A stretch of 64,000 nucleotides of DNA from Fimbriimonadaceae bacterium (GTDB taxonomy: Bacteria > Armatimonadota > Fimbriimonadia > Fimbriimonadales > Fimbriimonadaceae). Shown here one piece after another: positions 1 to 7,442 of the stretch. The DNA lies in NCBI GenBank assembly GCA_022843485.1, contig JALHNM010000007.1, forward strand, positions 1-64,000, given 5' to 3'. Both the position numbers and the translations under genes were made by a program. The stretch's first letter is position 1. Each line of letters starts with the position of its first letter. The notes beneath the pieces are model-generated. The model saw only the letters and a program-made list of their open reading frames with translations, ran no database searches and was not told where the DNA came from.

Positions 1-97
1 CGCGTGAACCCGTGAGGTTGCCAACCATGGCGCGTCAACGCTTGAACGACCCGTCGCACCCCTGGGCTCGCGATCTGGTCTAACGGAGGGACGAACG

Positions 98-454
98 TCA
101 CGAGCCCTTCCCTCCGTCCGGGGCCATCGGCAGGCAGACCTGGTGCGTGACGGGAGGGAGGGGCACGGGTTCCAGGCGGAGGAGTCCCCTCTTCGACCAG
201 CCCAACTCTTTAAGCGCCGAGTGGAGCGGGCCGCACGACCATTTCGAGAACGTGTAGAGGCCTTTAGGCGTGACCTCGAACCCGATCCGCTTGGACTGAC
301 GGTCGATGTACAGGCTGAACTTGTCGCCCGGCTTAGCCCCTAATGCCTTGTAGGCCGCCTCGTTCAGGATCACCTTCTCGGGGTAAGTGCGAACGATCGG
401 GTCTTGGGCCTTAACGCTCCTCGTCCGCCTCGGCATGAAAATCTCAAACCCCAC
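98..454 (-). CDS. Small phage-like hypothetical protein
   Basis: A 118-residue protein with no family I can name. It is basic at the N-terminus (PRRTRSVKAQ), and the central part (KVILNEAAYKALGAKPGDKF) looks like a small beta-rich domain. The GTG at 454 is chosen because an AAGGGGG Shine-Dalgarno-like stretch lies about 5 nt upstream; an ATG at 436 is the alternative. It overlaps the upstream RlpA-like gene by 11 nt and is the last visible gene of a tightly overlapping leftward cluster, which is the style of phage genes. Function unknown. Confidence 0.55.
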   Translation of the reverse strand: MGFEIFMPRRTRSVKAQDPIVRTYPEKVILNEAAYKALGAKPGDKFSLYIDRQSKRIGFEVTPKGLYTFSKWSCGPLHSALKELGWSKRGLLRLEPVPLPPVTHQVCLPMAPDGGKGS

Positions 455-818
455 GGGGAACCCCCTTGGCTCCGACCTTGCGGACGGTGACCCGGCGGAG
501 GCCGGGCGGGGCGTTCGCGGTGAGCTCGCTCCAGAGGCGATGGCTTGCGTCCACCCGAGACCTCGCGCCGCGAGACGGGGAGATGAGGGTCCGGCACATG
601 CGGTCGGTCACGAGGACGCGGCGGGACCGGTCTCCGAGAGCGATCTCCAGCTCGGTGCCGAGCGGCCACTCGTTGGAGGCGACGGTAAGCGCCCCCGCCC
701 GGTACGGCCGGCCGTTGGCCATCGTCCGCCCCTCGTACCGGTCGGCGTAGACGCTCATCGTCCGCCCTAGCGGCAGGGGTTCGAGGGCGAGGGACAAGGC
801 GAGCGCGAGGGTCGTCAC
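444..818 (-). CDS. RlpA-like double-psi beta-barrel protein
   Basis: A 124-residue protein. After a short hydrophobic N-terminus it has the double-psi beta-barrel pattern of RlpA/expansin-like proteins: SVYADRYEGRTMANG, then LTVASNEWPLGTELEI, then VLVTDRM, then VDASHRLW. RlpA family members bind or cleave cell-wall glycan, so in a phage cluster it could act on the host wall; that role is inferred. Its ATG shares ATGA with the stop of the upstream membrane protein, indicating translational coupling. The barrel assignment is fairly sure; enzyme activity is not shown. Confidence 0.7.
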   Translation of the reverse strand: MTTLALALSLALEPLPLGRTMSVYADRYEGRTMANGRPYRAGALTVASNEWPLGTELEIALGDRSRRVLVTDRMCRTLISPSRGARSRVDASHRLWSELTANAPPGLRRVTVRKVGAKGVPRGV

Positions 819-1060
819 TCGTGCACCCCCCGCACGACGTCCGATGTCAGGCTCGGCTCGGAGAGCAGCCCCGCACCGGCCCCTAGCCCGAGGGCTAGGC
901 CCAGCGCGAAGGCGACGCTGAGGGGAGCGAGCCTACGGACAGCGGTCCAGGCTCCCGGGGCGTCACCCCCCCTCACTGTGCCTCCACTGGCGAGGAGCCG
1001 GGCGTCCCTGGCCCTAGCGCTCGCCGCACCCTGCGGGGTCGTGATGTCGCTCAGCTTCAC
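815..1060 (-). CDS. Small single-pass membrane protein
   Basis: An 81-residue protein with an alanine/arginine-rich N-terminal half and one clear hydrophobic segment near residues 44-67 (LAPLSVAFALGLALGLGAGAG). The GTG start at 1060 overlaps the stop of the upstream gene as GTGA, and its own stop overlaps the next gene as ATGA. A small membrane protein next to a cell-wall-domain protein recalls holin or spanin neighbours in phage lysis modules, but no family motif supports that. Longer upstream reading frames are discarded because of the coupled start. Confidence 0.6.
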   Translation of the reverse strand: MKLSDITTPQGAASARARDARLLASGGTVRGGDAPGAWTAVRRLAPLSVAFALGLALGLGAGAGLLSEPSLTSDVVRGVHE

Positions 1061-1281
1061 GCGCCGTCCTCCTCGTCGATCGGCCCGAAGACCACGCGCT
1101 TCACGGTCGAGTACGGCAGAGGCACCCGGATCGGCGGCCCGTTGCGCAGGCGGACGACGGTCACGTCCGACTTCTCGTAGGAGACCCCCGCGACGTCGCT
1201 GGGTCGCACGGCAAACGGGTTGCCGTCGCAGTCCAGTCCTTCGGCCACGCGCAGGCCAGAGGGCGATACGACCTCTCTCAC
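1057..1281 (-). CDS. Small hypothetical phage-like protein
   Basis: A 74-residue acidic protein starting at a GTG that overlaps the stop of the Gam-like gene (GTGA). The sequence (MREVVSPSGLRVAEGLDCDGNPFAVRP...) has alternating hydrophobic residues suggestive of a small beta-sheet protein. No family recognised. The four-base overlaps on both sides make it very likely a real gene within the leftward cluster. Confidence 0.55.
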   Translation of the reverse strand: MREVVSPSGLRVAEGLDCDGNPFAVRPSDVAGVSYEKSDVTVVRLRNGPPIRVPLPYSTVKRVVFGPIDEEDGA

Positions 1282-1643
1282 GCGTCCTGCTCCTCCGGCA
1301 TGCCAGGGAAGCTGACCGAGAATTTCTCGACGCCTGGGCGGTGCTCGATGCCGGGGGCGTCTTCAAAGGCAAGCCCGGCCTTCCAGGCATCGTTCACGGC
1401 GGACTTCTTCGGCTCGACCTTGACGAGGTCGGGGCGATTCTCCAGGGCCCAGGCACAGAAGGCCGGGGCGTCGGTCACTGCGACCGAGTCGGCCTGAGCC
1501 CGGAACGAGAAGCGGCCGCCGAGGAGGTCGATACTCCTGCGCTTGCCGGTCAGGAGCCCCCTGGCCCACTCGGCGATGAGGGGCAGGTACCGACCCTTCA
1601 GCCATTCGTAGGCTTTGCTCGATTGGCCGAGCACCCGGTCGGC
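1278..1643 (-). pseudogene. Truncated Gam-like phage host-nuclease inhibitor
   Basis: About 121 codons remain of a protein resembling the C-terminal part of the Mu Gam / Gp157 host-nuclease-inhibitor type: a helix (SSKAYEWLKGRYLPLIAEW), the basic GKRRSIDLLGGRFSFR strand, then a domain with FCAWALENRPDLVKVEP and a terminal PGVEKFSVSFPG. Gam binds DNA ends and blocks RecBCD-type nucleases. The long N-terminal coiled helix expected in the family is missing: the frame runs straight into the first CRISPR repeat at 1644 and continues only as repeat-encoded nonsense. The stop overlaps the next gene (GTGA). The family call is moderate; the truncation is directly visible. Confidence 0.55.
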
Positions 1644-4600
1644 GTCGCACCCCCCCACCCGGGGGGGTGAGGATTGAAACACGAGCTGGTGGACGTCGCG
1701 AGTCTCCGGGAGCGCCGTCGCACCCCCCCACCCGGGGGGGTGAGGATTGAAACCCGGAGGACTAAGCGGTGCAGCCCTTCGAGAGATAAGGGTCGCACCC
1801 CCCCACCCGGGGGGGTGAGGATTGAAACATGTCTCGTCCACCCAGGCCACCGCCGACGGGGCGTCGCACCCCCCCACCCGGGGGGGTGAGGATTGAAACA
1901 TATATAGGGCCCTTCAGAGACATTCCCGAAATATAACGTCGCACCCCCCCACCCGGGGGGGTGAGGATTGAAACCTGACGGCGAGGGGCGGCTACGTCGC
2001 CGTCCTGCACCGTCGCACCCCCCCACCCGGGGGGGTGAGGATTGAAACGTCCAATCGTTCACCGTCTCCAGGGACGCCGCGAGGGTCGCACCCCCCCACC
2101 CGGGGGGGTGAGGATTGAAACCAAAGGCTAGTCGGGGTCATGGGCGACGGGTCGCCGCGTCGCACCCCCCCACCCGGGGGGGTGAGGATTGAAACAACCT
2201 GAAGCGGCCGTCCGTGGTCGTGATGGAGTCGCACCCCCCCACCCGGGGGGGTGAGGATTGAAACGACACGGTCAACGACATCCGGTCGCCCGGCGACCCG
2301 TCGCACCCCCCCACCCGGGGGGGTGAGGATTGAAACACGCTCTCGAACCGGTTCGACCCGAGCTGGGGGCGGGTCGCACCCCCCCACCCGGGGGGGTGAG
2401 GATTGAAACAGGTGAGGCAGGTCAGGCACACGACCCCCTGGGTAGTCGCACCCCCCCACCCGGGGGGGTGAGGATTGAAACTCTTTGGGTTCTTTCATGT
2501 CCTTACTGGTCGGCCACGTCGCACCCCCCCACCCGGGGGGGTGAGGATTGAAACACCGTCGCTAGGTTCTGGCCCCCCACGCCTTCGTGTCGCACCCCCC
2601 CACCCGGGGGGGTGAGGATTGAAACTACCGCTCGGCTGAGATCCCCATCGGATTCGCCTCGTCGCACCCCCCCACCCGGGGGGGTGAGGATTGAAACCGC
2701 CCGAGGTCGGGGTGGCGGAGGGGCTCGAGCGGCGTCGCACCCCCCCACCCGGGGGGGTGAGGATTGAAACGAACCTGCGTAAGGCTCGCGTTCCGGCTCT
2801 CGGTTGTCGCACCCCCCCACCCGGGGGGGTGAGGATTGAAACACCAGGAACAGCGGGCCGAGTCCCGCCGGTTGCAGGGTCGCACCCCCCCACCCGGGGG
2901 GGTGAGGATTGAAACGCCTCTACGCAAGGTCATACGACGTCTCCGGGCGCGCCTTCTGGGGTCGCACCCCCCCACCCGGGGGGGTGAGGATTGAAACCCT
3001 TGCGGATCGGGCCCGGCGTGTGCCCCAGCGCGAGGTCGCACCCCCCCACCCGGGGGGGTGAGGATTGAAACAAGCGTTTGTGAGGGCCGCTTGACCGGTA
3101 CAGGCCCGTCGCACCCCCCCACCCGGGGGGGTGAGGATTGAAACAACAGCGGGGCCTATAACCTGGTCGCGCTCATCCTGACGTCGCACCCCCCCACCCG
3201 GGGGGGTGAGGATTGAAACAGTAGCGACCCGGCCGCGAGCGGCCACTACTCAGGCGGTCGCACCCCCCCACCCGGGGGGGTGAGGATTGAAACCCTGTCC
3301 CACCTGCTCAAGCAGCCGGTGGGCGACCGTCGCACCCCCCCACCCGGGGGGGTGAGGATTGAAACGTCTCTCCTTGTCGAGGTCGGGGCAACGGAGCCTC
3401 CCGTGTCGCACCCCCCCACCCGGGGGGGTGAGGATTGAAACCCCTACATGCCGCTCGCCGTGGACAGGCTCTTCGCCGTCGCACCCCCCCACCCGGGGGG
3501 GTGAGGATTGAAACATCTTGTGGCTCCGGACGATGCGGTTCGGGAACGGGGGTCGCACCCCCCCACCCGGGGGGGTGAGGATTGAAACCCCATCACCGGG
3601 AACGTCAACAACTACGACTTCACGGTGTCGCACCCCCCCACCCGGGGGGGTGAGGATTGAAACTCAAGGTTGCGGAAGCACACCGCAGGCATCGATCGGG
3701 TCGCACCCCCCCACCCGGGGGGGTGAGGATTGAAACCTGCTGTTCACGCTGATCAAAGCGTGGGAAAAAGACGTCGCACCCCCCCACCCGGGGGGGTGAG
3801 GATTGAAACGATCCGGGTACCTCGGGATGATGGAGCGGCCGATCGAGTCGCACCCCCCCACCCGGGGGGGTGAGGATTGAAACGACCCCGGCGTGGCCTT
3901 AGCCCAAGCGGCGCTCTCGGGTCGCACCCCCCCACCCGGGGGGGTGAGGATTGAAACTCCGAGTCGATCAGGACTACGGCCGGTTCGTCGCCTGTCGCAC
4001 CCCCCCACCCGGGGGGGTGAGGATTGAAACCGGTTCGAGGCGGCCCACCACCTGCCGCACCTCCCGTCGCACCCCCCCACCCGGGGGGGTGAGGATTGAA
4101 ACTCGATGGACAAGACGCGGGCGAAAGCGTTCACTGGCGTCGCACCCCCCCACCCGGGGGGGTGAGGATTGAAACACGTCCAACGTAGAGGACTTGACCT
4201 GGACCCCGGAGGGTCGCACCCCCCCACCCGGGGGGGTGAGGATTGAAACGCGCAGGCCTCGGCCGACTCTTACGGCGTGTCGTCGCACCCCCCCACCCGG
4301 GGGGGTGAGGATTGAAACACGAACAGCCTGAACGCGAACCTGTCGTTGCTGGGCGTGTCGCACCCCCCCACCCGGGGGGGTGAGGATTGAAACCGTCGAT
4401 CACCGACGGTCACCAGGTAAGTGCTTGCCGTCGCACCCCCCCACCCGGGGGGGGTGAGGATTGAAACTACGGCAAGGAGGCCCAGGGCCTGATCGACCAG
4501 GGGTCGCACCCCCCACCCGGGGGGGTGAGGATTGAAACGGGGAGAGCTTGACGCGGGGGCGCTCGGGGCCTGGCGTCGCACCCCCCCACCCGGGGGGGTG

Positions 4601-6379
4601 AGGATTGAAACTCTAAGGGAACCGCAACCCACGACGCGACCCAGGCCGTCGCACCCCCCCACCCGGGGGGGTGAGGATTGAAACTAGACAGGAGCAGTGC
4701 CCCCGCTCCGCTCGTCGTGGTCGCACCCCCCCACCCGGGGGGGTGAGGATTGAAACCCGCCACTGTGCGGGGGGACCTGCCGGTGCTCATCGAGTCGCAC
4801 CCCCCCACCCGGGGGGGTGAGGATTGAAACGGATCGGTCGCATGCCGAATGTCCATCACGTTCGGCCGTCGCACCCCCCCACCCGGGGGGGTGAGGATTG
4901 AAACCAGAGCGCTACGGAGAGCTTGAAGCCTTTCAGCACGTCGCACCCCCCCACCCGGGGGGGTGAGGATTGAAACCAGGGGGTGTCGAGAACGGTTCGA
5001 GAACGGTTCGAGGTCGCACCCCCCCACCCGGGGGGGTGAGGATTGAAACCAGTAATGTCCTTAGGCGGGCAGGATGACGAGCACTCGTCGCACCCCCCCT
5101 CCCGGGGGGGTGAGGATTGAAACGAGATCAAGCGCTCGCCGTTCGAGGACGGGATCCACGTCGCACCCCCCCACCCGGGGGGGTGAGGATTGAAACCTCT
5201 CGACGCTGGACTCGGGTTCGCCGGCGGGGTTCGGGGTCGCACCCCCCCACCCGGGGGGGTGAGGATTGAAACCGTGGCGCAGAGGGCATGGTCGACGTCA
5301 TGCTGATCCCACGTCGCACCCCCCCACCCGGGGGGGTAAGGATTGAAACACGGTCGACCTCTCGACCCAGGCGGGCGCGGCGGAGTCGCACCCCCCCACC
5401 CGGGGGGGTGAGGATTGAAACCGGCCCACCCTGATCGTCGTGGACGAGGCCCACCACGCGTCGCACCCCCCCACCCGGGGGGGTGAGGATTGAAACAGGG
5501 CCCGCTTGACCTCCGATCCCCCGGGATCCTGGTCGCACCCCCCCACCCGGGGGGGTGAGGATTGAAACGAGCCTGCCCAGGTGATCGTCCAGCAGCGGCT
5601 CGCGTCGCACCCCCCCACCCGGGGGGGTGAGGATTGAAACCAGATTCGTGCGACCATCCGTCTTGAAGACCCTAGTCGCCCCCCCCCACCCGGGGGGGTG
5701 AGGATTGAAACACGTGGGACCGCCGCTACGGCAACGGGGCCGGGGGTGCCGCGTCGCACCCCCCCACCCGGGGGGGTGCGGATTGAAACATCGGGCGGGC
5801 GCCCGACCTCGTGGTCATCGACGTCGCACCCCCCCACCCGGGGGGGTGAGGATTGAAACTCGAATCTGGCCCGGGGCGTCTCGCTCCGGTAGGCAGGTCG
5901 CACCCCCCCACCCGGGGGGGTGAGGATTGAAACTGGGGGGTGTCCGTCACGGGATCCTTCGACGTGTCGGTCGCACCCCCCCACCCGGGGGGGTGAGGAT
6001 TGAAACGAGCCGAGGGTGCGCGGGGACGGGTCGCGCATGTCCGAGTCGCACCCCCCCACCCGGGGGGGTGAGGATTGAAACAGCCTCGGCCTGCTCGTCT
6101 CGGTCGAGAGCTGGGTAGAGCCACGTCGCACCCCCCCACCCGGGGGGGTGAGGATTGAAACGCCTCTTCGTAGTCGAGCGTCTCAGTGAGCCGGACTGTC
6201 GCACCCCCCCACCCGGGGGGGTGAGGATTGAAACATCACAGTCGCGGGCAGCGTCCTCTCGCCGCGTACCGTCGCACCCCCCCACCCGGGGGGGTGAGGA
6301 TTGAAACATGCAGCTCTACCTCCGCAAGCGCATCCGCGACTGGTCGCACCCCCCCACCCGGGGGGGTGAGCATTGAAAC
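1644..6379 (+). CRISPR. CRISPR array, 65 repeats and 64 spacers
   Basis: I counted 65 copies of a 37-nt direct repeat separated by unique spacers, mostly 34-39 nt. Each repeat starts GTCGCA, has a perfect 9-bp stem (C-A-C7 pairing with G7-T-G) around an ACCC loop, and ends GAGGATTGAAAC. The ATTGAAAC end is the usual crRNA 5' handle of many type I and III systems and implies rightward transcription. Repeats up to about 4393 are perfect. Variants lie in the right half: 4430 (eight Gs), 4503 (six Cs), 5087, 5313, 5675, 5753 and the last copy at 6343 (GAGCATTG). Distal decay also places the leader end at the left. No cas gene is present, and the left flank is a broken phage gene rather than an AT-rich leader. 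Confidence 0.98.
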
Positions 6380-6481: not shown

Positions 6482-6551
6482 TAGTGGGCCGCCGTCTCTA
6501 GTCCCTCCGGCTCCGGCTCCGGGCTGGGCCAGTGGCCGCAAGGTGAAAGAA

Positions 6552-7265
6552 ATGGCGAAACTCTCATTCAGTGCCGTCGTGGAGCAAGTCCGCGGCAAAG
6601 TCGGCACCGTTGTCTTCTCCGAGGCCCGGAACGGGGCCTCTCTCCGCATCAAGTCTTCGGTGAAGAACCCGAAGACCAATGCCCAGCGTGCGGTGCGCAA
6701 GTACCTCTCGCGGTCGGCGAAGACCTTCGAGGGCCTCTCCCTGGCCCAGGCGGCCTTGTGGAACGCCTACGGCGAGACGCAGCAGCGGACTGACCCGGTG
6801 ACGGGCAAGACCTATACTTTGAGCGGCATCAACGCCTTCGTCGAGCTGGCGATCAAGTTCCTTCAGGTGCAGCCGAACGGGACGATCCCGCTCGGGCCGC
6901 CGAACACGGAGTTCTCGGGCGACACGGTGACGGTCACGGCGACGGCGGGGGTCGGGCAGGTCCTCTTCAGCGGGTCCGGGCCGAACGCCCTCGGGGTGAC
7001 TACGGAGTTCCTTGTCCAGCGGCTGCCGGCCCGGAACCGCAAGCCGGACCCGAACGGCTACGTGAGCGCAGGCTTCAAGGCCCTCGGCACGGGGAACCTG
7101 GACTTCGTGGCGACGGTGACGCCTGGGGTCTACGCGGTGGCCTACCGCTTCGTGCGGGTGGCGACCGGCCAGGCGAGCGAGATCGAGCCGCTGCCGCTGC
7201 AGACGGTGACCTTCTCGGTGGAGGAGGGCGGCTCGGTGCCGGCCTCGAAGAAGCGGGCGGCCTAG
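6552..7265 (+). CDS. Phage-like protein of unknown function
   Basis: A protein of about 237 residues. The N-terminal half carries [17 protein letters not shown], then [14 protein letters not shown], then [16 protein letters not shown] and [14 protein letters not shown]. In my recollection this order (a VRGKVG start, a NP-T-AQ segment, an AW-AYA segment and a G-NAF segment) is common in small prophage proteins. The C-terminal half is beta-rich and Thr/Val-rich, like a structural domain, and ends in a basic KKRAA tail. ATG 6552 is preferred over GTG 6543 because AAGGTGAAAG precedes it. It faces away from the array. Phage origin is inferred. Confidence 0.7.
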
Positions 7266-7370
7266 TGCCTCCCCGGGCGGGCACGTGGCTCACCGTCTCC
7301 GGGCGGGGGCGCCGCGGAGAGTCGCCCTCCGGGGAGAGCTGTCGGGGCCTGTCCCCGGGGGTTGGGATCG

Positions 7371-7420
7371 TGCGGGCTCAGAGCCCGCGGACCGGGGTGC
7401 GGGCTGGAAAGCCCGCGCTC
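7371..7420. repeat. Dispersed two-hairpin (REP-like) repeat, copy 1
   Basis: Two short hairpins in tandem: GCGGGCTC/GAGCCCGC at 7372-7388, and GCGGGCT-GGAA-AGCCCGC at 7399-7416, separated by GACCGGGGT. A closely similar unit lies in inverse orientation at 46741-46790, so this is a dispersed family, like bacterial REP/BIME elements. Confidence 0.7.
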
Positions 7421-7442
7421 CTTGGTCGCTCCGGGGTGGGGG

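Follow-up and report, generated by a model that had tools for sequence, protein, structure and literature searches.

A type I-C CRISPR array of a Fimbriimonadaceae genome probably joined to phage DNA by assembly through a shared spacer, and the paired genes that bracket its cassette

The array on contig C7 and its flanks

The window, i.e. the whole stretch of DNA analysed here, covers the first 64 kb of contig C7 (102,195 nt; window position 1 is C7:1) of a Fimbriimonadaceae genome (G000) assembled into 20 contigs (2.96 Mb, 98.8% complete). It contains a type I-C CRISPR array on the plus strand (positions 1644..6379) that consists of 65 repeats of 37 nt (GTCGCACCCCCCCACCCGGGGGGGTGAGGATTGAAAC) and 64 spacers, all of them unique; inverted copies were not detected in the array. 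The spacers are mostly 34-39 nt long, with a modal length of 36 nt (20 of 64). Seven repeats are variants (two one-base length changes and five substitutions), and all seven are located within the last (right) 27 of the 65 repeats (P = 0.0013 under random placement), which places the leader side on the left; the ATTGAAAC end of the repeat agrees with the repeat decay, and both bear out the orientation proposed in an earlier note on this stretch.

Left of the array, positions 1..1607 form a segment judged to be phage-derived and misjoined, the leftward small genes of which are colinear with the early region of a prophage in the complete genome of a congener (G001): Gam-like, KTSC-position and DPBB-like genes follow each other in the same order. 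The segment is present in a single copy in the assembly, and its composition is indistinguishable from that of the host. The DPBB-like gene (444..818, minus strand) shares 68.7% nucleotide identity over 227 nt with G001 L042 9380-9603; its match to the Pfam family DPBB_1 remained below the cut-off. Adjacent to the array, a minus-strand frame (1278..1643) is open up to the first repeat and represents the C-terminal half of a Gam-like gene, with 44% identity to an intact Gam-like protein of G001 (residues 130-240 of 244 aa); other full-length relatives occur in the family. The fragment scored 12.1 bits against Phage_Mu_Gam (PF07352; cut-off 28.3 bits), i.e. below the cut-off, and the intact G001 relative scored 34.9 bits, above it. 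The N-terminal half was found nowhere in the assembly, so that the description of a Gam-like gene interrupted at the first repeat and lacking its N-terminal half was upheld. The intact Gam gene of G001 belongs to a prophage that also carries genes for integrase, repressor, an AAA-domain protein, helicase, large terminase, portal, head and tail; some 77 kb separate it from the G001 CRISPR locus.

To the right, the array is followed by a gene on the plus strand (6543..7265; hereafter bracket gene A) and by two chromosomal anchors on the minus strand, rpsJ (ribosomal protein S10, PF00338; 7443..7754) and tuf (EF-Tu, PF00009; 8082..9290). Bracket gene A had been regarded as phage-like; no phage, plasmid or viral-contig relative was present in the collections searched, and no family was assigned to it in Pfam, NCBIfam or the PDB. 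Its score against DUF6266 (PF19781) of 14 bits is below the cut-off of 23.4, and one of 26 A members matches this family (E 0.004). The single-sequence structure prediction was poor (pLDDT 38).

Leader, cas genes and chromosomal neighbourhood

In a search of the whole assembly, the repeat was located outside C7 at a single other place, the minus strand at the end of contig C2 (C2:45-154), and no third repeat-bearing contig was found. Toward this end, C2 carries in succession bracket gene B, cas3, cas5c, cas8c, cas7, cas4, cas1c, cas2, a leader of ~123 nt between cas2 and the first repeat, and the start of an array, in which a repeat, a 36-nt spacer, a repeat and a 37-nt spacer are followed at the contig terminus by GTCGCAC, with which a third repeat breaks off after 7 nt. 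The cas genes (C2:310-7791) constitute a full type I-C set: cas5c, cas8c, cas7, cas4, cas1c and cas2 scored above the NCBIfam cut-offs, and Cas3c was recognized by PADLOC. The leader precedes the first repeat, as in a type I-C locus, and is homologous to the G001 leader. C2 holds an entire type I-C locus that breaks off within the array, and C7 holds an array cut at the leader side, the leader-proximal units of which are situated on C2. With type I-C CRISPR-Cas systems the locus shares the full gene set (Cas3, Cas5c, Cas8c/Csd1, Cas7/Csd2, Cas4, Cas1c, Cas2), the TTC PAM, the ATTGAAAC repeat end and spacers of mostly 34-39 nt; it differs in its 37-nt repeat and is otherwise ordinary.

These results alter the picture of a leaderless array. 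No leader lies beside the C7 array, as had been observed, but it is intact at the end of C2 together with the cas genes; in view of the same finding, its supposed displacement by phage DNA is not supported. There is also no support for the view that normal spacer acquisition was impossible for this array. Indeed, the search of the rest of the genome for the 37-nt repeat, a leader and cas genes, as suggested in the earlier note, led for all three to this contig end, and the leader was found, at contig level, to be joined differently, an outcome that the note had listed among those that would refute its reading.

The relative position of both contigs was examined by comparison with G001. Just outside the I-C locus, C2:10532-14673 corresponds to G001:1695852-1700000 (79% identity over 4.2 kb), and rpsJ and tuf of C7 correspond with 89% identity to G001:1694546-1694240 and 1693700-1692492, respectively (tuf 88.7%). 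The C2-flank homologue adjoins the rpsJ homologue in G001, at a distance of 1.3 kb from rpsJ-tuf and in compatible orientation; 1.8 kb of the C2 flank and 0.17 kb of the C7 flank are without a G001 match. This adjacency of the flanks points to C2 and C7 being consecutive on the chromosome. A further argument for the C2-C7 join is provided by the bracket genes, as B on C2 (C2:7938-8735, L031), beyond cas3, and A on C7, beyond the array, form the outward A/B pair expected from other loci (see below). Judged from these sequence comparisons, C2 and C7 are chromosomal neighbours with the I-C cassette between their flanks.

In G001, the site between the C2-flank and rpsJ-tuf homologues is empty, and the I-C cassette of this genome is located at another site (716.7-729.2 kb), where cas4-cas1-cas2, leader and array are contiguous and 70% identical to C2. 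In the G001 locus (L060:6549-15302), cas3 is truncated (313 aa), and behind it lies another, divergent set of cas5-cas8c-cas7-cas3, beside which cas4-cas1-cas2-leader is still about 70% identical to that of the genome under study; this looks like a swap of the effector module.

The junction and its possible origins

At the junction, a TTC trinucleotide (1605..1607, plus strand) is followed by 36 nt (1608..1643, plus strand) that extend to the first repeat; this stretch, here designated spacer C, is presumed to be identical to a protospacer in the Gam gene and to constitute the join point. TTC is the established type I-C PAM (PMC8406640). Among the five best full-length spacer matches to the G001 prophage, TTC precedes three (S52 32/38, S34 29/36, S54 26/35), compared with a background of 1.3%, so that this PAM was found at three of the five best matches as well as at the junction. 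Shuffled spacers (20 sets) yielded at most one match each, and no spacer match at the level of the prophage matches was obtained in an equal length of host DNA. The chance of a TTC at exactly the modal distance is ~1 in 64, or ~1 in 13 when all common spacer lengths are admitted. In complete G001, the two flanks of the junction are placed elsewhere, the Gam relative being part of the prophage, as would be seen for a chimeric contig.

Very probably, as far as can be judged from sequence, the array represents the distal portion of a single, ordinary I-C locus, to which a phage piece was joined by the assembler via a shared spacer. A misjoin of the contig at the array was among the possibilities raised in the earlier note and is strongly supported by the leader and cas genes on C2 and by the gene order of G001. 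The true order would be C2 flank, bracket gene B, cas3-5-8c-7-4-1-2, leader, repeat, first spacer, repeat, second spacer, repeat (with further units possible), spacer C, repeat, the 64 C7 spacers, bracket gene A, rpsJ and tuf. Spacer C would be identical to the protospacer that a phage in the same sample carries in its Gam-like gene, and the assembler would have passed from phage DNA through the shared 36 nt into the array, by which C7 became capped with 1607 nt of phage DNA. The shared stretch would amount to 37 nt including the preceding C, since the repeat also ends in C, which would suffice at small k-mer sizes. In this account, the shared spacer would have caused the join, and the Gam gene would continue past 1643. 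Short-read assemblies are known to produce chimeric contigs and broken arrays at CRISPR arrays (PMC6617893); in contrast to such chimeras, the join proposed here passes through a spacer that equals a phage protospacer and not through the repeat.

The phage itself was sought in several collections. No intact phage was detected among viral contigs by means of the exact 36-mer, the Gam fragment, a Gam alignment, the DPBB-like gene, the G001 Gam or the terminase; the Gam continuation was not found in the genome contig collections, the phage DNA was not found in phage and plasmid collections by DNA search, and no independent copy of a phage carrying the spacer C target was encountered. Comparison of the whole array with phages gave matches at chance level only.

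Three other explanations of the junction were considered. A circular phage may really have recombined with spacer C by a single crossover, so that the phage truly lies inside the array and splits the leader from the distal side. Spacer and protospacer would supply 36 nt of homology for such an event, and C2 stops just where the array would be split; however, C2 ends 7 nt into a repeat without any junction to phage DNA, a stretch of 36 nt offers little for homologous recombination, the other half of Gam is missing from the assembly, and the array would be faced with a perfectly matching, TTC-flanked target in its own cell. An origin by crossover is, in consequence, regarded as very improbable. 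A comparably low probability is given to the presence of two arrays, i.e. a cas-linked array on C2 that was assembled in part, and on C7 another, leaderless array next to a genuine prophage remnant: Orphan arrays that share the repeat of a cas-linked array are common, but no third contig contains the repeat, the flanks of C2 and C7 adjoin each other in G001, bracket genes B and A are distributed over C2 and C7, and the junction resembles a protospacer in its PAM and its spacer length. A third reading, in which the left flank comes from a phage or another mobile element that carries the array, would agree with the phage-like character of this flank; it deserves next to no credence, as the right flank consists of a bracket gene followed by rpsJ-tuf, which are chromosomal in G001, and the cas genes on C2 are in chromosomal context. 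No copy of this repeat array was found in phage contigs of the collections searched. The related suggestion that the array had travelled on a mobile element is retained in one respect, as the chromosomal site of the cas-array cassette differs between the two congeners, and receives no support in another, as there is no sign that a phage brought it.

The assembly join through spacer C, if correct, means that one apparent example of a leaderless array displaced by phage DNA is not real. It would further define a pattern for which other assemblies can be screened: Phage DNA that breaks off at a repeat, with a PAM located exactly one spacer length before the break, would mark a spacer-protospacer chimera and, in addition, name a phage present in the sample. 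A host-phage link would be obtained here as a by-product of the join; its position would be close to the leader end, which holds the most recent spacers.

Bracket genes A and B and their cargo

The family of the bracket genes was detected in 14 of 41 related genomes (the survey covered mostly one family and its order), with about 20 copies in the genome under study. Close copies (<20 kb apart, gap >1.5 kb) are arranged outward in 25 of 28 pairs and inward in one. In the family tree, clade A is supported by 0.99 and the remainder is referred to as B; an A is combined with a B in 24 of the 25 typed pairs. Such pairs enclose the I-C loci of both G000 and G001, the I-E locus of G000 and, in G014, a cas1-array locus, and further pairs were observed in L060, L069 and L080-L104. 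Elsewhere, A/B cassettes contain restriction-modification genes (type I, IIG) and other defence genes. With gene frames called by a simple coding heuristic, 116 cargo frames matched 386 PADLOC families and 116 flanking/host frames matched 11, a large contrast, in which the family counts do not equal independent systems because the PADLOC models overlap.

The two bracket genes also differ in their adjoining sequence: 11-nt direct repeats are present just inside B and not A, the unit sequence being different between pairs. The best 24-nt self-match at a lag of 9-14 averaged 18.3 inside B, 13.8 inside A and 13.4 at random places (95th percentile 16), and the lag inside B was 11 in most cases. The count of inverted repeats at B was only weakly above the control, so that the direct periodicity of 11 nt is the firm result here, and none of the k-mers shared at cassette edges was clearly beyond chance. 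At the site of the I-E cassette, the aspS side alone was matched in G001.

On balance, we are inclined to interpret A, B and the 11-nt tract as a dedicated immunity cassette system, in which the paired genes each time enclose a single defence system, and which may represent machinery for movement or exchange, or recombination handles. The location of the I-C cassette at different sites in the two congeners suggests that A, B and the repeat tract may move or swap the defence cassette. Defence islands and hotspots contain variable defence cargo between fixed flanking genes; the cassettes resemble these in their variable cargo between conserved flanks and differ in that the flanks are two outward-facing paralogues, which occur as many pairs per genome, with 11-nt repeats within one of them. 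No published description of defence cassettes bracketed by A/B was found in a short search of open papers, and the bracketed defence cassette looks new, possibly as a class. If A/B pairs bracket and move immune systems, they would offer a direct handle on the shuffling of defence between chromosomal sites and might serve as bait for new defence systems, as the same cassettes hold unknown cargo.

Several additional features of these loci were observed. The I-E locus of G000 (C5, L069:4966-17000) is a second CRISPR-Cas system with its own array, the repeat of which ends in GGGGATGAACCG, and lies within an A/B pair beside aspS. One whole contig (L081; G000 C18, 11,966 nt) corresponds to a single A/B cassette that is broken at the end of gene B; the repeated bracket genes may themselves break up the G000 assembly. 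An intergenic stretch of ~50 nt right of gene A (window 7369-7421) belongs to a repeat family with many genomic copies of 84-96% identity.
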